Below, piece after piece: positions 2,610 through 33,485 of a stretch of 45,033 nt of DNA. The notes under the pieces are model-generated. The model made no database searches and was not told where the DNA came from. It was given only the letters and a program-made list of their open reading frames with translations. Position 1 is the first letter of the stretch, and each line of letters opens with the position of its first letter. Source of the DNA: a virus. The position numbers and the translations under genes are program-made. The stretch covers positions 1 through 45,033 of IMG/VR virus record IMGVR_UViG_3300025921_000033; one strand, given 5' to 3'.

Positions 2610-2825
2610 TGGGTTAAGACTGGGCCGCAACCATTATCCGGGGGGTTGGTGACTGGACTGACCCCTTTGAAGACAGCTTGTGACAACCGTGGGTTTGGTT
2701 GTGTGTGTTGGGATTAGACCGCATCGTCTGTAGCTTCGACGGAAGTCTCCAGCTCAAGGGCTCCGGCCCCAATGCTCAGTATGGGTGGATGACCAGTGAT
2801 TGAGCCCTATGCAAACGGTGTGAAA
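2610..2825 (+). other. Gap with an RNase H-like peptide fragment
   Basis: Over 200 bases without a convincing complete gene. A frame starting at GTG 2705 encodes about 32 residues ending at 2803 and containing a D-G-S motif followed by NAQYGW, reminiscent of the first strand of RNase H-fold proteins, then stops. It may be a decayed or truncated gene. GC-rich inverted repeats (for example GGGGTTGG...CTGACCCC near 2641-2665) could form RNA structure. No tRNA was found here. Confidence 0.25.
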
Positions 2826-3290
2826 ATGCTTCAATATGTGACTGGAAATCTTCTCGACACGTCGGACCCATATATCGCTCACGGATGCAATTCTTCGGCC
2901 CGCATGGGAGCTGGCGTCGCCTTGCAAATTGCGAGGCGGTATCCTTGGGTGGCGGAGAAGTTCAAAGAGACGTATAAGTGGGAAGTTGGCTTTCATGGGC
3001 GGGGCGACGGTTTGCCGCTTGGGGCGGTATATGAGTATTCCCAACGAGACGCCCCTTATCGCATCCTTAACCTTATTACTCAAAGGGGCTATGGGCGGGA
3101 CGGCAAGAGATACTTGTCATATGATGCCCTAGATGACGCATTCCGGGCTGTGCGCAAGAAGATTGGAACCGCCCGACTCTCTATCCCCCGGATTGGCGCC
3201 GGGCTTGGTGGGGGCTCCTGGGTCATTGTAGCCGCCATTATTGAGGAGAACTTTCGGGACAGCGTTGTGACTGTGTGGGACTTGTCATGA
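2826..3290 (+). CDS. Macro-domain (ADP-ribose processing) protein
   Basis: This 154-residue protein is a stand-alone macro domain, a fold that binds ADP-ribose and often hydrolyses ADP-ribose-1''-phosphate or ADP-ribosyl adducts. The sequence shows the family signatures: GNLLD at residues 7-11, IAHGCN at 17-22, MGAGVALQI at 27-35 followed by YP, and the phosphate-binding loop PRIGAGLGGG near residues 120-130. ATG 2826 puts the first strand at the N-terminus as usual; a GTG at 2796 is also in frame. In a phage it could reverse host ADP-ribosylation or process ADP-ribose phosphate from RNA repair; the sequence alone does not decide. Confidence 0.88.
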   Translation: MLQYVTGNLLDTSDPYIAHGCNSSARMGAGVALQIARRYPWVAEKFKETYKWEVGFHGRGDGLPLGAVYEYSQRDAPYRILNLITQRGYGRDGKRYLSYDALDDAFRAVRKKIGTARLSIPRIGAGLGGGSWVIVAAIIEENFRDSVVTVWDLS

Positions 3291-21259: not shown

Positions 21260-21417
21260 AACACTGGATTCGGCTTCGCTGCATTATTAGGCACGAAGAC
21301 CGCAGTCGGTCCGCAGCCATTTGGATTCCTATCCACGGATATAAGGATCAAGACCAGTCTTATCGGTCTTGTCATCTTTGTCCTATTTGTAAATTACCCA
21401 TGAAAGAAGTTCCGTGA
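21235..21417 (+). CDS. Small zinc-ribbon-like protein
   Basis: A 60-residue basic protein starting at GTG within the previous gene and ending in an overlap with the ligase start (GTGA). Its C-terminus has CHLCPICK, a close Cys cluster that may bind zinc. The Arg/Lys-rich N-terminal half would suit RNA contact. It sits in the RNA-repair unit, but its role is unknown. Confidence 0.5.
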   Translation: MHKKKRGLKHWIRLRCIIRHEDRSRSAAIWIPIHGYKDQDQSYRSCHLCPICKLPMKEVP

Positions 21418-22571
21418 ATTATCAGTTTCCGATGATCTACCATATTGACCAAGTTATCCCTCATATAGAAAACCACGAAGGTTTTATCGTGGCCAAAAGA
21501 GATAACTACGATGTGGTCAACTACGTCTCAGTTGTTGATGCTTTTCCGAAAGTTGAGGAAGTGGGCGAGGGAGATGCTGTCCGGCGTGAGTGCCGAGGTA
21601 TGATTTTCGATAAGCAGGGAAAGATTGTCCGGCGCCCGTTCCACAAGTTTTTCAACGTCGGGGAGCGTCTAGAGACGCACGAAAGTAAAATCGACTGGAC
21701 CAGGAAACATGTCTACCTCGATAAGCTTGACGGCTCGATGGTGACACCCTTCTTGGATAAGGGACAGCATCTCCGCTGGGCTACCAAGATGGGTATTACC
21801 GAAGTGGCGATGCAGGCCGAAGTGCATGTGGCCAAAAATCAAAAGTATATCGATTTTGCCACAGCATGCCTGGATATTCCGGGAGATGAAGTCACTCCCA
21901 TTTTTGAGTGGTGTAGTCGCAAGCAAAGAATCGTAGTGGACTATCCCGAGGACCAATTGATTTTGACGGGCATGCGAGCCCTTAACTCGGGATACTACTA
22001 TCCTTACGATTCAATGAAAAGGGTTGCCACCAACTATGGGATTCCGGTGGTGGATTCTATTCCTCCTATCGATTGGAATGTTCTGGGGGATGCCGAAGGC
22101 ATGGAGGGGGTGGTTATTCGCTTCCTCGACGGCCACATGCTCAAGCTCAAAAGCTCTTGGTATGTGGGAATCCACAAGGCCCTCTCGGGATTGGTTTGGG
22201 AGAAAGACATTCTTCGATTCATCTATGAAGATAAGCTTGATGACGTGCTACCGTTCCTTTCGGTCGATGATCAAAACCGAGTTGATAATTATGCTGGCTT
22301 AGTACGGATTGGCTTTAATGCTACTTTGGTTCAAATCCAAAAAGCTTCGAAAGAAGCTCATGAAATGGGCCGAAAGAACTTTGGGTTAGCAGAAAAGATG
22401 TATCCAAAGATGGTGCGAGCAGTTGTTTTTGATACTTGGGAAGACGAAAATCCCGACTACGCCAAATGCTTACTTGAGAAAGTTAAAAAACATCTTAACT
22501 CTCAATCAGGAGTTGACAAGATTAGAGGGGTGGTCCACGCTAAGCCGTGGAAGTTTAGGGCGGGGGAGTGA
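21414..22571 (+). CDS. rnlA: RNA ligase 1 (T4 Rnl1-like)
   Basis: A 385-residue ATP-dependent RNA ligase that seals broken tRNA after phosphatase/kinase repair. Nucleotidyl-transferase motifs in order: ECRG (59-62), FHKFFNVGE (76-84), motif I KLDGS with lysine 104 as the AMP-accepting residue, IFEW (163-166), EGVVI (231-235) and motif V LKLK (243-246). Length (374 in T4) and the N-terminal ECRG-FHKFFN signature identify the Rnl1 family. The start codon is GTG. Its neighbours are the phosphatase and kinase halves of a split PNK. Confidence 0.95.
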   Translation: MNYQFPMIYHIDQVIPHIENHEGFIVAKRDNYDVVNYVSVVDAFPKVEEVGEGDAVRRECRGMIFDKQGKIVRRPFHKFFNVGERLETHESKIDWTRKHVYLDKLDGSMVTPFLDKGQHLRWATKMGITEVAMQAEVHVAKNQKYIDFATACLDIPGDEVTPIFEWCSRKQRIVVDYPEDQLILTGMRALNSGYYYPYDSMKRVATNYGIPVVDSIPPIDWNVLGDAEGMEGVVIRFLDGHMLKLKSSWYVGIHKALSGLVWEKDILRFIYEDKLDDVLPFLSVDDQNRVDNYAGLVRIGFNATLVQIQKASKEAHEMGRKNFGLAEKMYPKMVRAVVFDTWEDENPDYAKCLLEKVKKHLNSQSGVDKIRGVVHAKPWKFRAGE

Positions 22572-22753
22572 TGAGCGGCTTTTTCCAGACGGTCTGGGAT
22601 TCTTTCATATGGCATCATGCTACCGACCTAATTGTTTGTGCCATCCTAGCGATTGTGTTTGTCTTGTGGATGGGCGCCGCATACTTTATGCACCTATACA
22701 AGCGTATAAAGACAAAGATTTACTTTTGGAAGAAACACGGAATCAAGCTATGA
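22571..22753 (+). CDS. Small membrane protein
   Basis: A 60-residue protein with one membrane span (residues 21-43) and a basic C-terminal tail (KRIKTKIYFWKKHGIK). It overlaps the ligase by TGATG and the kinase by ATGA, so it is translated with the repair genes. A connection to repair is unclear. Confidence 0.6.
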   Translation: MSGFFQTVWDSFIWHHATDLIVCAILAIVFVLWMGAAYFMHLYKRIKTKIYFWKKHGIKL

Positions 22754-23523
22754 GCAAACAGCCCGAGTTAAGAATGCTTGTGGGTCTTCCCTTGTCGGGG
22801 AAGACGACCTTTCGCCGTCACATGTGGGCTGATTATCTAAGAAGTGTTCCTGTAATTTCTTCGGATGATTATATTGAGGCGATGGGGCAACTTCATCAGT
22901 TAGATTATAATGACGCTTTCCCGATTTTCATCGACGCCGCCAACAAGGCTTGTTTTGCGATGGCGCAATATTCGGCGTCTAGGGGCCACAACGTAATTTG
23001 GGATCAGACAAATCTTACTGAGAAGTCCCGGAAAAGTAAGCTTGCATTTTTTCATGACAAGTCGAACTGGACCTATAAGAAAGTTGCTTACTATTTCATA
23101 CCACCCGACCATTCTTTACTTTTGAAGAGGCAAGACAGAAGGATTGATAAAAAAATTCCCGAGAATGTTCTTTTGTCTATGCGAGACCAACTTCAAATTC
23201 CGGGATTAAGCGAGGGATTTGACCAGATTATTCATGTCTGCGGCAAATCGGGGGGAATTGTATTTGACTCCGCCGAAAATAAGTTTTACGACGCCGCCGA
23301 GAAACCTTCCCAAGACATCCCAAAAAAGTCTCGTAAAGAGCGTCTAAAAGAAGATATGATTGCCGTTTATAAGATGCGATTTGAGGAAGCCGTTGTACCT
23401 TCCGCCAAGCTGAAGGTGCGTATGGATTTCCTCCAGCAACTGGCTTTGGTGGAAGAGAAACCTTTTATTTCGGATGCTTTAATTGAGGAAGTCGATGGCT
23501 ATCTCGGATACAGCGAACACTAA
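22750..23523 (+). CDS. 5'-polynucleotide kinase
   Basis: A 257-residue P-loop kinase. Walker A GLPLSGKT is at residues 12-19; SSDDY (35-40 region) matches the acceptor-binding Asp of T4 PNK, and DQTNLT near residue 90 is the family's DxTNL motif; a lid-type RQDRR segment follows near 120. The first 170 residues correspond to the kinase half of T4 PseT; the C-terminal 85 residues are a charged helical extension, not a phosphatase. With the phosphatase at 20795 and Rnl1 it forms a tRNA repair set. ATG 22750 overlaps the preceding TGA. Confidence 0.87.
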   Translation: MSKQPELRMLVGLPLSGKTTFRRHMWADYLRSVPVISSDDYIEAMGQLHQLDYNDAFPIFIDAANKACFAMAQYSASRGHNVIWDQTNLTEKSRKSKLAFFHDKSNWTYKKVAYYFIPPDHSLLLKRQDRRIDKKIPENVLLSMRDQLQIPGLSEGFDQIIHVCGKSGGIVFDSAENKFYDAAEKPSQDIPKKSRKERLKEDMIAVYKMRFEEAVVPSAKLKVRMDFLQQLALVEEKPFISDALIEEVDGYLGYSEH

Positions 23524-25830: not shown

Positions 25831-26400
25831 ATGAGGGGTTTTCGAGACAGACCTATTCCGTCTATCGGGGAGTTTGCTGAGTGGTCGGTGCGAGAGATTA
25901 TTCGGCAAAAGGTTCGAATTCCGTCTTTTGCTGCTTTTGATGTTGACCTTTGGCAGGACCATGTATTGTCGTGGCAAGGCAAGCCGATGCTGATTCCAAG
26001 CATCAAAGGTGTGCGGAATCAAGACAAGTGCTCGGAAATAGAAAGGTGGAGAACGGTAGCTCCTCACCTTGGGGGGTTCTCGGTTTGCCCAATTTTCTCC
26101 GATGGCACTAACTCTTGGACTTTGCTAGACATTGCCGAAAATTTTAGTTGGGAAGAAAACAAACGCATTACTTTCCCTGATTGGATGAATTTTTCGGAAA
26201 CACCACTTAGTCCATTTTTCCATGTTAATAAGGAAAACAGAATTCCTTTGCCCGATGCCCTTGTGATTCGTCGGTATCTGATCAAGGAAAAAAAGTTGGG
26301 GCGAGAAAGAGTATTCAGCCCCGACGACTTTGTGAAGTATATCGAGGACGAGCTGAAGCTAGCTATGGAACGCTACCGGTCTCCGGTGACTACGGAATAA
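25831..26400 (+). CDS. Hypothetical protein
   Basis: A 189-residue protein with GGAG six bases before ATG 25831. It is mixed alpha/beta, with conserved-looking blocks (FPDWMNFSETPLSPFFHV, RIPLPDALVIRRYLI) but no known catalytic motif. It ends with an 11-base overlap with the convergent LuxR gene. Role unknown. Confidence 0.7.
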   Translation: MRGFRDRPIPSIGEFAEWSVREIIRQKVRIPSFAAFDVDLWQDHVLSWQGKPMLIPSIKGVRNQDKCSEIERWRTVAPHLGGFSVCPIFSDGTNSWTLLDIAENFSWEENKRITFPDWMNFSETPLSPFFHVNKENRIPLPDALVIRRYLIKEKKLGRERVFSPDDFVKYIEDELKLAMERYRSPVTTE

Positions 26401-27154
26401 GAGACTTGCGTAAGGCCAAGGCAACTGCTTGAGTGCGGTTGCTGGCCCCCAGCTTGTTCTGCGCCTTTTTCAAGTGACTGCGAACAGTCTCCTCACCAAT
26501 TTCGAGGGCTTTGGCAGTTTCATGAATCTGGGCGCCCATGGAAGCAAGCCGCAGGATTGCAAGTTCTCTCGCTGTCAACTGGACTTGCTCGGTTATGGTT
26601 GGGTCAGCCTCGGCGAGCTGATTCAAACGTAGGGCCGCAAAGCTGGCGGCGGCATAGAGTACAATGCGGATGGGTTCGGTCAGAATATTGGATAGCTCTT
26701 GACGAGACCAGAAGACGAATGCCCATCGGCCGCCTACTGGGCAAGTCAGTCCATCTCGAATTCCGTGTTTGGTGGCCAAATCATACAGCCAATTGTCAAC
26801 TCCAATCGGCTGGAACTTTCTCCTAATCTCTGTCCATGTGTATGTGGCCATGCTGGAGGCGGCCAAAAACATAACTGGACGGAACTTTCCGTGGGCAAGA
26901 GACTGGTACTCTTCCCACAGCCCCTTAGACACGCTGCCGTGTATGAAGACTGACTTTCCCAACTTGAGGGAATCCCAGTCTCCGGATTTCAGCGGAAGCC
27001 TAGCCGCTCCAAAGACCGATAGCATCGGCAAGTGGTGAGCGGTGGCGTCGTGAAGCTCATTCAGTACGTCGCACGAAGAACGTAGCTGCCCACTACGACA
27101 AGCGTAGTTAACAACTATCTCGGTAAAAGCCGAGAGGTTGACTGATTCTTTCAT
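26390..27154 (-). CDS. LuxR-family quorum-sensing-type regulator
   Basis: A 254-residue transcription factor with a C-terminal LuxR helix-turn-helix (193-252): LTARELAILRLASMGAQIHE, ETAKALEIGEETVRSHLKKA and NKLGASNRTQAVALAL are textbook. Residues 20-180 resemble the autoinducer-binding fold (the GIRDGLTCPV strand near 131-140, W107 in TYTWTEI). The usual ligand-contacting D-P pair appears as R92-P93 and the W-x3-Y pair as W80-x2-Y83, so acyl-homoserine-lactone binding is doubtful. It may be a host-acquired 'solo' sensing host density. ATG 27154 sits 17 bases after the end of a tRNA on the same strand. Confidence 0.82.
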   Translation of the reverse strand: MKESVNLSAFTEIVVNYACRSGQLRSSCDVLNELHDATAHHLPMLSVFGAARLPLKSGDWDSLKLGKSVFIHGSVSKGLWEEYQSLAHGKFRPVMFLAASSMATYTWTEIRRKFQPIGVDNWLYDLATKHGIRDGLTCPVGGRWAFVFWSRQELSNILTEPIRIVLYAAASFAALRLNQLAEADPTITEQVQLTARELAILRLASMGAQIHETAKALEIGEETVRSHLKKAQNKLGASNRTQAVALALRKSLIP

Positions 27155-27171
27155 TTTTGGCGTCCCGCAGC

Positions 27172-27248
27172 TGGTGCGCAAGGTGGGATTCGAACCCACA
27201 CTGAACGGGGCTTAAGCCCGACGCCTCTACCAGTTGGGCTACTTGCGC
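27172..27248 (-). tRNA. tRNA with UAA anticodon (Leu by codon)
   Basis: A complete cloverleaf with encoded CCA. Acceptor GCGCAAG/CTTGCGC is a perfect 7 bp; T-arm GTGGG-TTCGAAT-CCCAC is canonical; the anticodon loop CTTAAGC gives UAA, reading leucine codon UUA. The variable region is only five bases (TCAGT), whereas bacterial tRNA-Leu has a long variable arm. The D-stem is three pairs and base 27-43 is a T-T mismatch. So identity by structure is in doubt. It lies 17 bases upstream of the LuxR-type gene on the same strand. Confidence 0.9.
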
Positions 27249-27251
27249 CTG

Positions 27252-27296
27252 AAAAAAACGAAGGAAACCCGGACACCGCCAAGGCGACCGGGTTTC
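27252..27296 (-). terminator. Rho-independent terminator
   Basis: On the minus strand GAAACCCGG (27296-27288) pairs with CCGGGTTTC (27272-27264), with more pairs inside, followed by a run of seven T (27258-27252). It ends the transcript of gene 27322-27639 ahead of the tRNA. Confidence 0.85.
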
Positions 27297-27321: not shown

Positions 27322-27639
27322 TTAGGCGGCCTTGATGCCCAGATTCTTGAGGGCATCGACGGCTCCGACCGTGGAAGGCTTGGCCTTTTTGGTCTTGCCG
27401 GTCGAAACGGGCTTGTGCTGCTTGCGCTTCATCAGCGCCCGGTTCCAAAAGCGGTCGTAGCCGAAGTTGTTGATAAGGAGGTCGAGGGTCGGGTCGATCT
27501 CGGAATCAACCTCAACGGACGCTGCCTTGGCCTTCTTCTGGGCCTCATTCAGAAGCCGCTTGGCCTCGGCAATCGCATCCGGGCCGCCCTTGACGATATC
27601 CTCGATAGACGTTGCTCGTAGTTGCTCAGTCTGGGTCAT
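27322..27639 (-). CDS. Small basic protein with own promoter
   Basis: A 105-residue Lys/Ala-rich protein. Residues 1-50 are a helical, acidic region (IEDIVKGGPDAIAEAKRLLN); residues 70-105 are very basic (RKQHKPVSTGKTKKAKPSTV), which suggests nucleic-acid binding. It has a sigma70-type promoter, an AAAGGAGAAA SD and a terminator, so it is an independent early-type unit. No family recognised. Confidence 0.7.
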   Translation of the reverse strand: MTQTEQLRATSIEDIVKGGPDAIAEAKRLLNEAQKKAKAASVEVDSEIDPTLDLLINNFGYDRFWNRALMKRKQHKPVSTGKTKKAKPSTVGAVDALKNLGIKAA

Positions 27640-27683
27640 TCCATTTTCTCCTTTGCATGACCGATAACTGCCTTAGGTGTCCA

Positions 27684-27712
27684 AGATATAAATGTAGCCA
27701 TGAAGTTGTCAA
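27684..27712 (-). promoter_or_regulatory. Sigma70-type promoter (minus)
   Basis: On the minus strand TTGACA (27712-27707) is followed at 16 bases by TATATC (27690-27685), or at 17 bases by ATATCT. It drives the gene at 27322-27639. Confidence 0.7.
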
Positions 27713-27981
27713 GGGGTTGGCGCAAAAAGATTGTCGCATCGGTCTTAGATTCTGCCTGTGAGCACATGCACAATCATGGGTTGGCCATGACTATTATCAT
27801 GGCAGCTAGAGGGGTACTAGAGGGAGATGACTCCCCCGAAATGTTGAGGTTCGTGCTAAATTCGTGGAGTGCTTCTTCCCCCTTGTATGTGATGCCTCTC
27901 TCCCCTATCTCTCTAGTGCGAGTTACACGGCACGGGGAAGACGGCCGAAGAAGGGTGGGGGAAACCTCACCCTTCTTTTAA
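27700..27981 (+). CDS. Doubtful hypothetical protein
   Basis: A 93-residue frame starting inside the minus-strand promoter. No SD is seen; AGATATAAATG just upstream resembles a T4-type late promoter. The stop codon lies in the T-run of a terminator hairpin, which is better on the plus strand, hinting at real plus-strand transcription. It may be a true late gene or an artefact between two convergent units. Confidence 0.35.
   Translation: MKLSRGWRKKIVASVLDSACEHMHNHGLAMTIIMAARGVLEGDDSPEMLRFVLNSWSASSPLYVMPLSPISLVRVTRHGEDGRRRVGETSPFF
27948..27981. terminator. Terminator between convergent units
   Basis: AAGAAGGGTG (27948-27957) pairs with CACCCTTCTT (27968-27977), 10 bp, followed by TTTAAT on the plus strand. 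On the minus strand it lies just after the giant tail gene stop but without a good T-run there. Confidence 0.7.
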
Positions 27982-30900
27982 TATTGGCGGCCTCGGTGCG
28001 TGTCGCCCCATCCGCTCATGATTGGGTTCGACTCGTTTTCGGGCGAGTGCACCGGGCAACCGATGTGATCACGGTCTCCGCCGTCGCCGCTGGCCGCTGC
28101 TTGCCCGCCGCCGCCCCTTCCTGGGGTAAATGGCCGGTGCCCTTGGTTCGGCGATTGCCCGCCTGAGCTGGCCCCAGCGGGCATATGGCGCCGGGTTATA
28201 TGTCTTGACGCTTGGCCTCTTTGCCGATCCGGGGTTGCGTTCTGGGCGTGTTGTCCTCTTGGTCTAACGTTTGCGGCCTGTGGTTGGTTCGCTGGGCGCT
28301 GGCGTCTTTGTTGTCCTTGCCCCGCCGCCGCTCGACCATGAGCTTGAGCATTATGAGGCGCTGCCCTGGCTGAATGGTCAGCTTGAACTTGTTGGGGAGT
28401 ACCCCCTTCTCCTCGCCGTCCCCGGCGAGCTGTAGGTTGGGGCTCGGCGCTGGCTACTTGTTGCCCGCCTCTTCCCCCAGCATAACGTTGGGCGGCCGAA
28501 AGACGCCGATCTAGATGAGGCACACCGGGCCGCTCAAAAGTATTCATGAAAGAACTTGTAGAGCTTTGCACATCTCCGGTACGACGAATTGCCGCAATAG
28601 AATTCTTGTACTTCCCGTCGAGGTCATGACGAAGCATCGCATAGTTGCCTTCATAAGAAGACGTGCTTAGGCCACGCTGGGCGGCCAGACTTTCGAATTC
28701 ACGGCGTCGAGGCCCAGTCCACTGGGCGATACCAAGTCCCCCCCGACCCGAGCGTTGTCCTTGTTCTTGCATCTGGCGGAATCCTCCGGACTCATGATGC
28801 AGATTTCCGACGATGCCCGCCGCTTGATGACTTGAGAGGCCATAGTCTCTCATCAAATCTCCGTGAAGTCGTTGTCCCCAACTTCCTCCGGCCGACTGGA
28901 CTTGCTGCGCCTGGGCGCCCTCGGAAGACCCCGTTCGATTGTGGGCATGACCAGTGTGATCATGACCTTCCATGGATTGAACCGAAACATCCCCTTGTAG
29001 AGCCCCGCTAGGATGAGATAGGTCAGGAAGATTCACGTTTCTTCCAATAACATCATTGATGCCTGAAAGGTTTTTGGGATTTCCAAGATATTGACGAAAC
29101 GGCTGGTCCTGAAATTCTGCTTGGTTGGGCGCCGAGCGAGCAAGAGATTGCTCGGCATTTGTCATAACTTGATTCATCTGAGGCCCATACTGGTCTCGTA
29201 GTTGGGCACGCTGGGCTGGGGACAGCCTATTCATGTACTCAGCTGTGAATGCCATATTTCCAAGGAAGCCTCCGGCATTTACTTGCTTGCTGCCGGCGTC
29301 CATTTGCAAGTGCTGGTCGTGAGTATAGGCGTTTACTTCATCAAGGAGTCCGCCCCCAAGATCTTGGGCTGATGCCGAACTTCTTTGCCCCATGTAAGTG
29401 TCAAATTGGAGATTCTGGCCTCTAATCCCAAAAGCTTCTCGTTTGACAAGAGAATCTGGTCTAGGAAGGTTAAGTTTATTATCAGGATTTACGAAAGGAA
29501 TATATCCGTTAGCGGTCCATAGTCCCCCTCCGGCGTTGCCCGGTGTTGAGAGAGCATGGATTGCTTCATGGCCTTTGGTGTCAGGAGTGCCTTGGGTATC
29601 TCTGTAAACTTTGGCAGCATCACGGTTTCCAGCCATCGCTCTTTGAAGAGCTGGCCCAACTTGACCGGGTTGGATTGACCCGGCATTAGACTGAGGGGTA
29701 ACGGTTGCTGGAGTCGGGGAACTTCCGGTATCGGTATGCGGGGAAGAGCCATCTTGTTGTGGTGCTCGACCATTTCTAAGGTGGTTGGCAAAGTTACCAT
29801 TAAGATTATGCTGCCCGCTTCCTTGGTTTTGAGAAAGATTTTGAGAAAGAGACGGGGCGTTTCCGGGAGCCGATTGCGGCAACATTTCTGGTGTTGCTCG
29901 GCGAACATCGGTCCACTGATTTGGTCTATAAGGATATCTGTTTAGATTATTACCCTGAAGAACATCTAAGCCATTTTCGGATTGGACAAGAACGCCGACA
30001 TGGCCTGTGCCCCCTTGTCGAGGCCGATAGACAACATCGCCGGTGCGGGGAGTACCATCGGCTGCTTGTCCCCAATTACGGAAAGAGGCGGCTGTCGAGT
30101 TTGTGCCTCGAATATCGACGTTATTATCTTTTAACCAGGAACGCACAAAGTCAGCACACCAAGCATGTCGGGTAGTGCCACCGGCGCCCCGCAAAAATTG
30201 TTCCATTTCGGCGCCACGCCCACCGCCCTGGAATCCCATCATTCTAGTTGCGTGTTGAAGGGCAGCGCCGGTTAAAGGTTTGCCGCTGCGCATTGCCTCA
30301 ATCACCGAAGCATTAGATGTCCCAGTAGTGGCCGCTGCACCTTGCTGGCCCCCTTGTCCTCTGCCTTGATTTCCTGATTGCTGTGCTATCTGATTTTCGG
30401 CTTGGTTATAACCTTGCATCAGGTTTTCTCGGAATCGGGCCGAGGCTGCGTGACCGCCTCGGACGCCGCCGAAGTCGTTAAAGGTTTCTCCCCCGATTGA
30501 AACTCGACCACCCTGATGTCTTACGTTGGGGTCGTTTCCAGATCCTTGATCAGTGGCCCCTCGGATTTGATTTGAACCTCTTAAGGCTTCATCAATATTT
30601 CCGCTGTAACGATTATATTGCTGCTCGTTGATATTAGGAAGAGCACCCCTTCGAATAGGACCATAAAACTGATTCCGGCCCGAACGATTTAAGTAATCGG
30701 AGATAGTAGTTCTTTGACCAGTCTGCTGCTCCATCAACTCAAGACGATTGAACATGCTTTCCATAACAGCAGTACCCGCCCTGGGGTTTTCTGCCTGGAT
30801 AAGTCTAGCTAACTTCCGACGTAGTTCGGGGTCGCCATTTATTTCTTGCTGGAATCTTTGTCGGCGCTGGGCGAGATATGCGGCCCCGCCCCCCGACCCA

Positions 30901-33485
30901 AGGTCGGTGCCCCCGGAAGTTCTGTCGCCGCCACTGATAGCGCCGTTTGAGCCTTGCTGAGGAGACCTTGCCCCGCCCCCGGAATATCCTCCCCCGCCGC
31001 TGCCATAGGGTTCAAATCCCCCCGATGTTCCGATTCTTCCGGCGATACCACCCCCATAACCAATATCGTTTACGGTGCTGCCGGGAGTAGTATATCCAGA
31101 TCCGGGAGCTGGACGCACATTTCGGCCAGTGTTTGGCTGTCCAAACACCATGCTTGCCCCGTAATTTCCAAGCTGGGTTCCTCCAGCTACTGAGCCATAT
31201 AGATCAGGCGGCCCCATACCCGATTGTTCGGGGCTGATTTTATTTTGATATTCTCTAAGATGGTTGGCAAAACGACCATGTAAGTTATGATGGCGCTGCG
31301 CTGAAGATGTTTGGTTGCGGCTTCCCCCGCCCCACCAGTTTTTGAGGCGCTGCATAACAGAAGGGGGAGTGATTTGTTGGGTGGAACCTTTGTTGGGTTG
31401 CCGTTCCGCCCCAAAACTCCCTCCAGTAGAGAATCCTCGATTTCTTAAGTGATTGGCAAAACGACCATGCAAGTTATGGTGTTTTATCCCAAGTCGTTGT
31501 TCAAGGTCTCGGCGAAGGTCGTGTTCACTGCCCATCCGAGGACTGAACATCTCTTGTAGATTTTGAGGAGGCAAAGGTACCTTACCGTAGTTCGGTCCTT
31601 CCTTTCCTCCGTATTGCTCAGGTACCCACGCCTGAAGAATCTCTTCAATGATTTTGATGGCTTGCAACACCATCACGACATCCAAAGTGACACCAATTCC
31701 TCGGAAGATAAGGCTTACAGCTTGCTTCCATCCCATGGAGCGAACAGCTTCCATGACTTTCTCAGGTCCGCCAAAACGGCGAATAGCTTCTTCTACCTTA
31801 TTTCGGCTAAGCCCCGAACCTGGAGAACTTTGGCGACCATAGCCCGAACCATGAAAGCCTCGCTCTTGAGAAAGAGCGTCTTGCATTCTCGAATCGTATG
31901 GTCTTACCGTTTCTTGGACGGATGAGAAGGGCCGGGAGCGAAAGTTGTCCCGGTATTGTTGCTCTACCTCCGCTAGTCTGTCTCTTAAACTTGAAGGTCG
32001 AGTATGTTCTTGAACCGAAGAAAATGGCCGAGAACGGAAGTTGTCTCGATATCTTTGCTCGGCTTGGGAATGACGATTGTCGTGTGGTCGAACGTGTTCT
32101 TGAATTGCAGAAAATGGGCGAGAACGAAGATTTTGTCTTTGGGCTCCCTCGGCCGAACTAAACCGACGACTCTCAGCCTCTCTCTGTTGAGAAAAGCTTT
32201 GCTCGGCGCCCTGTCTCCCCATATTTCTCAGGCGATTATCTATTTTGCTTTCAAGGGCTTTGATTTTTTGGTCTACCGCCGCCCCAATATTCATTTTGCT
32301 ATAAAGTTGTTGGATGGCCCCTGATGAAAGCTTTAGATTCTGGGTATCAATGGTCACGGTGCCGGCTGAGATAAGAACTTCACTTCCTCGAATGACGAAT
32401 TGACCGGCCGCCTTAAACTTCATGCTGCCTTTTGAGACAAATTCAAGTCTTTCGACTTCAAGTTTATCTTTTAAGACTTCGGGGAGCATTTTCTTTAGCC
32501 CCTCGATAGCTTCCTTTTCTTGGTCTTTTGAGTTCCCCCCATGACCAGAGAAAGATCCCTGGAATCCCATAGATGAGCCATAGTTGCCCAGCTGTCCGCC
32601 CTGGAATCCGCCCCCATAGCCTCGAATGGTGCCGGGAGCATCGCCCATCCATCCGCCCCCGGCGTTAGACGGCACGCCTCCTGGATATGCTCCCCCAAAA
32701 CCAAATTGGTTGGCGAGAGCTTGGCCAAATCCCTGGCCATGGTACATGTTGCGGCCGATGCCAAAGGCATCATAGGCTAGAAGACCTAAGCCAATACCGG
32801 GGATTGCTCGACCGGCTAGACGCCCAAGAAAACCTGCCCCGGCCCGTGCTGCCCCCCGAAACCCAAGAGCCCTGGCGGCCCCTCCAGCCGCTGCCCGGCC
32901 CCCTCTATAAAGTCCGTATCCAGCTGCTGCCGCATGAAGCCATGGGTGATTCTGGCCATATTGAATGCCCCCGCCCATGCCTCCAAAGGCGCCCATTTGA
33001 CCCATAGAGCCAAGAGACTGTACGCCGCCCTGACCCATGCCTTCATACCGCATGCGGTTGAAAGCCATTTCAAATCGGTCTTGTTGGCGCTTAAGGCCGG
33101 CGACATCGGAGCGCAAAATCTGAATGGCCCGGCTATGCTCGGACAAGCTTTTTGCAATCGCCTGATTATTTTGGCGAAGACTTTTTAGAAGGTTGTTGTA
33201 GGCCCCGGTAAACTTATGATCAACCTCCTCGATATCCGTGACCCCGCCCGGATGCAAATTTTGAGGAAGGCGAGCCGGCTGGAAGGTGCTAAGTCCAAAT
33301 CCAACATTTGAAATAGAGTTAGTCAGTCTCTCAGGGACAAGCGATTCCCGTACAGAGGACACGGCGTTCCACATATTCCGGCCCTGCATATACAGAGAGC
33401 CGGCTGTGGTTTGACTTACTGACTGAGAAAGACGAGCGGCGGTATAACCAAGCGCAAATCTTCCAAGATTACCCCAAAAAGGCAT
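27978..33485 (-). CDS. Giant multi-enzyme tail protein (lysozyme, cysteine peptidase, metallopeptidase modules)
   Basis: An 1835-residue, Gly/Gln/Ser/Arg-rich tail protein. Residues 100-140 look coiled; 170-260 are Gly/Ala-rich and hydrophobic. Around 450-520 a RYRDNFRSRPFSSVQE-type unit recurs three times; HNLxGxFANHLR occurs near 670, 735 and 1235. Module 1 (about 1095-1200) is NlpC/P60-CHAP-like: Cys in HAWCADFVRSWL, His in GTGHVGVLV. Module 2 (about 1300-1420) has HEAIH and then LDEVNAYTH, a gluzincin-like zinc site. Module 3 (about 1540-1630) matches phage tail lysozyme: LSSHQAAGIVGNLHHESGGF and GLGIAQWTG. Directly after the tail chaperone genes, as a tape measure would be, it probably is a tape-measure or hub-associated protein that opens the cell wall. 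Low-complexity sequence makes length-to-tail inference unsafe. Confidence 0.8.
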   Translation of the reverse strand: MPFWGNLGRFALGYTAARLSQSVSQTTAGSLYMQGRNMWNAVSSVRESLVPERLTNSISNVGFGLSTFQPARLPQNLHPGGVTDIEEVDHKFTGAYNNLLKSLRQNNQAIAKSLSEHSRAIQILRSDVAGLKRQQDRFEMAFNRMRYEGMGQGGVQSLGSMGQMGAFGGMGGGIQYGQNHPWLHAAAAGYGLYRGGRAAAGGAARALGFRGAARAGAGFLGRLAGRAIPGIGLGLLAYDAFGIGRNMYHGQGFGQALANQFGFGGAYPGGVPSNAGGGWMGDAPGTIRGYGGGFQGGQLGNYGSSMGFQGSFSGHGGNSKDQEKEAIEGLKKMLPEVLKDKLEVERLEFVSKGSMKFKAAGQFVIRGSEVLISAGTVTIDTQNLKLSSGAIQQLYSKMNIGAAVDQKIKALESKIDNRLRNMGRQGAEQSFSQQREAESRRFSSAEGAQRQNLRSRPFSAIQEHVRPHDNRHSQAEQRYRDNFRSRPFSSVQEHTRPSSLRDRLAEVEQQYRDNFRSRPFSSVQETVRPYDSRMQDALSQERGFHGSGYGRQSSPGSGLSRNKVEEAIRRFGGPEKVMEAVRSMGWKQAVSLIFRGIGVTLDVVMVLQAIKIIEEILQAWVPEQYGGKEGPNYGKVPLPPQNLQEMFSPRMGSEHDLRRDLEQRLGIKHHNLHGRFANHLRNRGFSTGGSFGAERQPNKGSTQQITPPSVMQRLKNWWGGGSRNQTSSAQRHHNLHGRFANHLREYQNKISPEQSGMGPPDLYGSVAGGTQLGNYGASMVFGQPNTGRNVRPAPGSGYTTPGSTVNDIGYGGGIAGRIGTSGGFEPYGSGGGGYSGGGARSPQQGSNGAISGGDRTSGGTDLGSGGGAAYLAQRRQRFQQEINGDPELRRKLARLIQAENPRAGTAVMESMFNRLELMEQQTGQRTTISDYLNRSGRNQFYGPIRRGALPNINEQQYNRYSGNIDEALRGSNQIRGATDQGSGNDPNVRHQGGRVSIGGETFNDFGGVRGGHAASARFRENLMQGYNQAENQIAQQSGNQGRGQGGQQGAAATTGTSNASVIEAMRSGKPLTGAALQHATRMMGFQGGGRGAEMEQFLRGAGGTTRHAWCADFVRSWLKDNNVDIRGTNSTAASFRNWGQAADGTPRTGDVVYRPRQGGTGHVGVLVQSENGLDVLQGNNLNRYPYRPNQWTDVRRATPEMLPQSAPGNAPSLSQNLSQNQGSGQHNLNGNFANHLRNGRAPQQDGSSPHTDTGSSPTPATVTPQSNAGSIQPGQVGPALQRAMAGNRDAAKVYRDTQGTPDTKGHEAIHALSTPGNAGGGLWTANGYIPFVNPDNKLNLPRPDSLVKREAFGIRGQNLQFDTYMGQRSSASAQDLGGGLLDEVNAYTHDQHLQMDAGSKQVNAGGFLGNMAFTAEYMNRLSPAQRAQLRDQYGPQMNQVMTNAEQSLARSAPNQAEFQDQPFRQYLGNPKNLSGINDVIGRNVNLPDLSHPSGALQGDVSVQSMEGHDHTGHAHNRTGSSEGAQAQQVQSAGGSWGQRLHGDLMRDYGLSSHQAAGIVGNLHHESGGFRQMQEQGQRSGRGGLGIAQWTGPRRREFESLAAQRGLSTSSYEGNYAMLRHDLDGKYKNSIAAIRRTGDVQSSTSSFMNTFERPGVPHLDRRLSAAQRYAGGRGGQQVASAEPQPTARRGRRGEGGTPQQVQADHSARAAPHNAQAHGRAAAGQGQQRRQRPANQPQAANVRPRGQHAQNATPDRQRGQASRHITRRHMPAGASSGGQSPNQGHRPFTPGRGGGGQAAASGDGGDRDHIGCPVHSPENESNPIMSGWGDTHRGRQY

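Follow-up and report, generated by a model that had tools for sequence, protein, structure and literature searches.

The phage quorum receptors with a worked-out role that we found in the literature belong to temperate phages, where they serve the lysis–lysogeny choice. A gene for a LuxR-type regulator on a 45,033-bp viral DNA fragment, the whole of which is referred to here as the window, raises the question of what such a regulator could serve when its carrier, judged by gene content, is a T4-type phage with no such choice known and the residue that should meet the signal has reversed its charge.

The luxR gene and its surroundings

The original prediction, made from the sequence alone, had placed luxR 17 bases after a tRNA on the same strand, and both the ORF and the tRNA proved to be real (Table 1). 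The start codon is preceded by a weak Shine–Dalgarno sequence (CGGGA, 8 nt upstream). Relatives of the convergent ORF at the other end of the gene were absent from the viral contigs searched. The GC3 value of luxR (0.58) is ordinary for this phage, whose remaining genes span 0.41–0.78, thus the gene is not a recent arrival. A chimeric contig was also considered and seems improbable, because luxR is packed tightly among the genes of the fragment and its GC3 is ordinary.

Table 1 Coordinates of the luxR locus and its source record
Feature	Position (bp)	Strand	Remarks
Window	1–45,033		IMG/VR virus record IMGVR_UViG_3300025921_000033, linear fragment
Convergent ORF	25,831–26,400	+	Shares its last 11 bp with the end of luxR
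LuxR-type regulator gene (luxR)	26,390–27,154	−	254 aa, ATG at 27,154
C-terminal LuxR/GerE helix-turn-helix	26,414–26,581	−	Residues 192–247; Pfam; E178/L182/G188 of TraR kept
N-terminal autoinducer-binding domain	26,603–27,088	−	Residues ~23–184; profile, model, Pfam match below cut-off
Arg92 codon (CGT)	26,879–26,881	−	Position of TraR Asp70; alignments
Leu79 codon	26,918–26,920	−	Position of TraR Trp57; HMM alignment
Spacer	27,155–27,171	−	17 nt, tRNA 3′ CCA to luxR start codon
tRNA-Leu	27,172–27,248	−	Anticodon UAA, CCA encoded; Rfam tRNA 59.9 bits
Terminator-like hairpin and seven-T tract	27,252–27,296	−	Directly upstream of the tRNA
105-aa ORF	27,322–27,639	−	Upstream; possible first gene of the unit
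Sigma-70-like promoter match	27,683–27,712	−	TTGACA-18-TATCTT, upstream of the 105-aa ORF

Identity of the protein

The C-terminal LuxR helix-turn-helix named in the original prediction was matched by the Pfam model GerE with 47.5 bits (cut-off 23.5), while the model of the N-terminal domain, Autoind_bind (PF03472), reached 19.5 bits (E 7.5e-4) and stayed under its cut-off of 23, which is a detection threshold and not a biological definition; at their own cut-offs, the Pfam searches thus recovered the first of the two families but not the second. A profile was built from the ligand domains of 62 bacterial LuxRs, with the studied protein left out. It scored 34.8 bits against residues 1–186 (E 1.4e-8 in a search space of 24,736), compared with a maximum of 7.0 bits among 2,000 shuffles; the test is slightly biased by the fact that part of the profile set had been gathered with the studied protein as query. 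The same profile gave 89.8 bits with the ligand domain of the LuxR of phage ARM81ld. The matches of the studied protein obtained with phmmer included QscR, RhlR, SdiA, and TraR.

The AlphaFold model (pLDDT 74.7, 11-row alignment) matched QscR, SdiA, and RhlR along almost its entire length (Foldseek E values as low as 2e-10), and its ligand domain resembled the solved structures of CepR2 (Z 15.2, rmsd 2.8 Å, 158 residues) and LasR (Z 14.4, rmsd 2.7 Å); as the alignment consisted of LuxR homologues, these also shaped the model, which is therefore no independent evidence. Modelling from the sequence alone gave an uninformative result (pLDDT 40.7), although from residue 107 its secondary-structure elements come in almost the same order. 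The viral structure library returned matches to the helix-turn-helix and, for the N-terminal half, just weak PAS/GAF-like ones. The profile score and the match of the model to CepR2 and LasR bear out the autoinducer-binding fold, whose proposed landmarks (W107, G135, and GLTCPV) are present as given. The alternative, a protein with neither an Autoind_bind match nor similarity of fold, failed because both exist. We concluded that the phage protein is very probably a LuxR-type two-domain protein, and since the three DNA-binding residues E178, L182, and G188 of TraR are all kept, it likely binds DNA.

The altered ligand pocket

In AHL receptors the conserved Asp bonds the AHL amide, and Trp57 stands at the lactone end. 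These receptors share the TraR residues W57, Y61, D70, P71, W85, and G113 (PMC4414361; PMC10134790), at which positions the phage protein has L79, Y83, R92, P93, W107, and G135; that is, four of the six are kept and the motif WYDPWG has become LYRPWG. The replacement of the Asp–Pro pair by Arg92–Pro93, read by eye in the original prediction, was confirmed, as Arg92 aligns with Asp70 of TraR in phmmer (query 91–253 against TraR 69–234), MAFFT, and the HMM alignment. The altered pocket supposed there gained a second change, Leu79 at the W57 position, which had not been noticed. The CGT codon is two changes away from GAT, thus a single sequencing error does not explain Arg92.

Among the bacterial LuxRs with a residue at the D70 position, Asp occurred in 58 of 60, Asn and Ser in one each, and Arg in none; at the W57 position, 49 of 58 had Trp, seven Phe, one Tyr, and one Ala. 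Asp was likewise present in 24 of the 25 full-length LuxRs from other viral contigs (among the matches listed). In one LuxR on a viral contig, Ser replaces the conserved Asp, which makes this another altered pocket. PluR and PauR sense other molecules, and replacing the Asp at the D70 position impaired signal recognition, while the larger D75E damaged overall function (PMC4414361). In a survey of bacterial LuxR solos, D70A/R/Q/N was reported from the hchA-adjacent group and W57L from others (PMC4338825), and with D70R listed among these solos, the change is rare, yet it has a precedent. The exchange of Asp70 for Arg together with that of Trp57 for Leu makes classical AHL sensing less likely, not more, and from the residues we consider it unlikely. 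Arg92 could in principle make new ligand contacts, and Trp80, lying beside Leu79, might replace Trp57.

The carrier phage

By its gene content the carrier is a T4-type phage, in agreement with the original prediction. The T4 core genes on the 45-kb fragment were recognized by PHROG matches to the ssDNA-binding protein (272 bits), head closure (166 bits), baseplate hub (155 bits), baseplate wedge (108 bits), and tail tube (107 bits), and Pfam identified a T4 RNA ligase 1 family protein. The ssDNA-binding protein is approximately 38–45% identical to homologues from cyanophages and T4-like environmental contigs, and the nearest isolates by tail tube are Caulobacter phage Cr30, Stenotrophomonas phages, and Rhizobium phage RHph_I1_18. 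Neither a tyrosine integrase (PF00589) nor a LuxI (PF00765) was found on the 45-kb fragment, which is an incomplete genome. The phage is putatively virulent.

Several other genes of the fragment deserve mention. A Macro-domain protein (2,796–3,287, + strand; PF01661, 23.8 bits, barely above the cut-off of 22) possibly handles ADP-ribose for the phage. At 21,414–23,523 (+ strand), the T4 RNA ligase 1 family protein adjoins an AAA_33 (polynucleotide-kinase-like) protein recognized by Pfam, and the two, which share the fragment with the phage tRNA, likely act together in RNA repair. The 1,835-aa Gly/Gln-rich protein encoded at 27,978–33,485 (− strand) is tail-lysozyme- or hub-like, with only about 185 residues matching the PHROG baseplate hub and tail lysozyme family.

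Relatives and distribution

No close relative of the phage protein was found in the phage, viral, and genome collections searched. The 84,980 bacterial and archaeal genomes contained no close match, which argues against a recent capture from a host. Close viral relatives were not found by protein search, alignment, or the LuxR C-terminal pattern; in viral sequences this pattern returned three GerE-only proteins, and one homologue alignment was too divergent to serve in such scans. The phage protein is nearest to alphaproteobacterial LuxRs from Ensifer (34–35% identity), Sinorhizobium (33%), an Asticcacaulis plasmid, where the gene lies beside luxI (32%), and a further alphaproteobacterial genome (33% over 240 residues). 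In the tree, the phage protein was placed near Rhizobiaceae solos on the longest branch (2.05 changes per site), and the length of this branch makes the placement unsafe. The phage LuxR is known from one contig, with no close relative to reveal selection.

A LuxR or GerE protein occurred in none of the 160 related viral fragments, many of them short, which had been found via the ssDNA-binding and hub proteins. A pattern scan of other viral contigs detected at least 25 full-length LuxRs, some of which may stem from host DNA bordering prophages; among the matches listed, no T4 core genes lay on the 1–15 kb covered around them. Two viral contigs carry two full-length AHL-type LuxR genes apiece. 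The best "phage" match, Pseudomonas phage Y5 (OQ572407.1), was rejected as an unverified record with a host rhl-like region; it contains P. aeruginosa-like rhamnolipid and rhlR genes and probably includes host DNA.

The tRNA, the hairpin, and expression

The original prediction assumed one transcript for the tRNA and luxR, which was supported in one part and questioned in another: no sigma-70-like promoter was found between them, but a strong terminator-like hairpin that it had not recorded stands directly before the tRNA. The arms of the hairpin (27,264–27,296; −23.2 kcal/mol, z −4.8; also recorded as repeat I3) are followed by the seven-T tract (27,252–27,258), 3 nt from the tRNA. Consequently, the tRNA and luxR would be read only past the terminator or from an unseen promoter. 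Their co-transcription is plausible, and the arrangement suggests that terminator read-through may express both. The 105-aa ORF has neither a PHROG nor a Pfam match. The sigma-70-like site upstream of this ORF is weak evidence, since one such match was found versus 1.1 expected by chance; from that site to the end of luxR, including the tRNA–luxR gap, there was no other sigma-70-like promoter, and no T4 late-type TATAAATA was found in the 45-kb window. The scan was limited to the promoter types that it covered, and other phage promoters could change this picture of expression.

The tRNA-Leu is the sole tRNA of the fragment and reads UUA, the rarest Leu codon (35 of 629 in the genes counted), thus codon supply offers no obvious reason to keep it. 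Permuted tmRNA genes were detected by ARAGORN in many related T4-like contigs, several of them beyond the hub gene, in the stretch where the studied phage has its tRNA.

Possible roles of the phage LuxR

We tentatively favor the reading, to which we give slightly less than an even chance, that the phage protein is a non-canonical LuxR solo regulating genes without the usual AHL. An alphaproteobacterial LuxR would have been captured long ago by a T4-type phage, and its ligand half, having lost both the amide-bonding Asp and the lactone-side Trp, would be independent of the host AHL, either folded and active by itself or tuned to another ligand. During infection, the protein would recognize lux-box-like sites and hold either host quorum-type promoters or phage genes at a fixed output; eight lux-box-like dyads (18–20 bp) were found on the fragment versus five expected, a frequency no higher than in shuffles, and none of them stands out. 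Transcription past the terminator that precedes the tRNA would give rise to a tRNA–luxR RNA, from which tRNA processing would free the luxR mRNA with a 17-nt leader. In a bolder form, the pocket would have been rebuilt so that a T4-type, non-lysogenic phage turns the host quorum regulon on or off at any density, the dose of this density-blind regulator being set by terminator read-through and tRNA processing. We regard this combination as rather doubtful; if true, it would amount to quorum hijack, not eavesdropping. A direct test is possible, as host quorum genes could be seen either to run without signal or to be blocked.

The protein might instead compete with a host LuxR, keeping quorum-controlled (possibly anti-phage) genes off through inactive mixed dimers or occupation of lux boxes. 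The dimer-forming fold and the altered pocket would suit such a competitor, and precedents exist both in TrlR, which makes inactive heterodimers with TraR (PMC11655674), and in the phage protein Aqs1, an inhibitor of LasR and of antiphage defences under quorum control (PMC8383118). However, the DNA-binding domain of the phage protein is complete, unlike that of TrlR, and its 26–35% identity to host LuxRs makes mixed dimers uncertain; we consider this role unlikely. It is quite improbable that the protein is a working AHL receptor in which Arg92 and Trp80 rearrange the pocket, letting the phage sense host density as ARM81ld may. Although the motif residues Tyr83, Pro93, Trp107, and Gly135 are kept and the LuxRs of ARM81ld and an A. 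popoffii phage bind host AHLs (PMC6456758), the amide-bonding Asp is replaced by an Arg seen in none of the 60 bacterial LuxRs compared, Trp57 is replaced by Leu, and a T4-type phage has no known lysis–lysogeny choice to inform. We also see little chance that it is a receptor for another host small molecule, like the non-AHL LuxR solos: solos with D70A/R/Q/N (hchA-adjacent) and W57L exist (PMC4338825) and the NCBIfam hchA-neighbor family matches the C-terminal part, but this match is confined to residues 162–251 and its 42 bits stay below the cut-off of 215.6, and the W57M and Y61W changes of plant-responsive solos are not present. That the gene is a functionless passenger, taken up from a host and now in decay, is very improbable. 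Although no branch of the tree is longer (2.05 changes per site) and related viral fragments lack such a gene, the 254-codon frame is intact, the DNA-binding residues and core fold are kept, and the gene is tightly packed between a tRNA on one side and a convergent gene on the other.

Comparison with known systems

The closest parallels in architecture are the LuxR of ARM81ld (p37) and that of the A. popoffii phage (PMC6456758), which also have ligand and GerE domains and no adjacent LuxI. ARM81ld, however, is a linear-plasmid temperate phage with an xre–luxR pair and its LuxR binds C4-HSL, whereas the studied phage is T4-type, with a tRNA–luxR order and the change of Asp70 to Arg; in pairwise BLASTP the two proteins matched in the helix-turn-helix only (36% over 59 aa). 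The xre–luxR–luxI modules of Roseobacter prophages (PMC13345283) are likewise alphaproteobacterial phage quorum-sensing regulators, but they belong to temperate prophages, include LuxI, and form a lysis–lysogeny switch, while neither an XRE regulator nor LuxI is next to the phage luxR, whose neighbors are the tRNA and ORFs without an assigned family. Roseophages also carry LuxR-annotated genes (PMC11288001), and a metagenomic "Myoviridae" (MH622937) has been cited with LuxR/LuxI (PMC6456758).

Among the bacterial proteins, TraR, SdiA, RhlR, QscR, and LasR resemble the phage protein in overall fold and agree with it at four of the six pocket positions and at all three DNA-binding positions, but differ from its LYRPWG in their intact WYDPWG. 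The hchA-neighbor solos (PMC4338825) have no LuxI (none was found on the 45-kb fragment either) and are similar in their two domains and pocket changes including D70R, but they are chromosomal and vary at Y61 and P71, which are kept in the phage protein. The plant-associated solos OryR and XccR have W57M and Y61W (PMC10134790), where the phage protein has L79 and Y83. TrlR has a missing or broken DNA-binding domain, in contrast to the complete GerE domain found here, and the small GerE-only proteins of phages (three viral loci and BFVD matches) share the C-terminal helix-turn-helix but lack the ligand domain. Phage LuxRs were thus already known from ARM81ld-type phages and Roseobacter prophage modules, and no earlier LuxR-type receptor of a T4-type phage was found in the literature or among the viral LuxR loci listed; what the present locus adds is the T4-type carrier, the linkage to a tRNA with its preceding terminator, and the charge reversal at a key residue.
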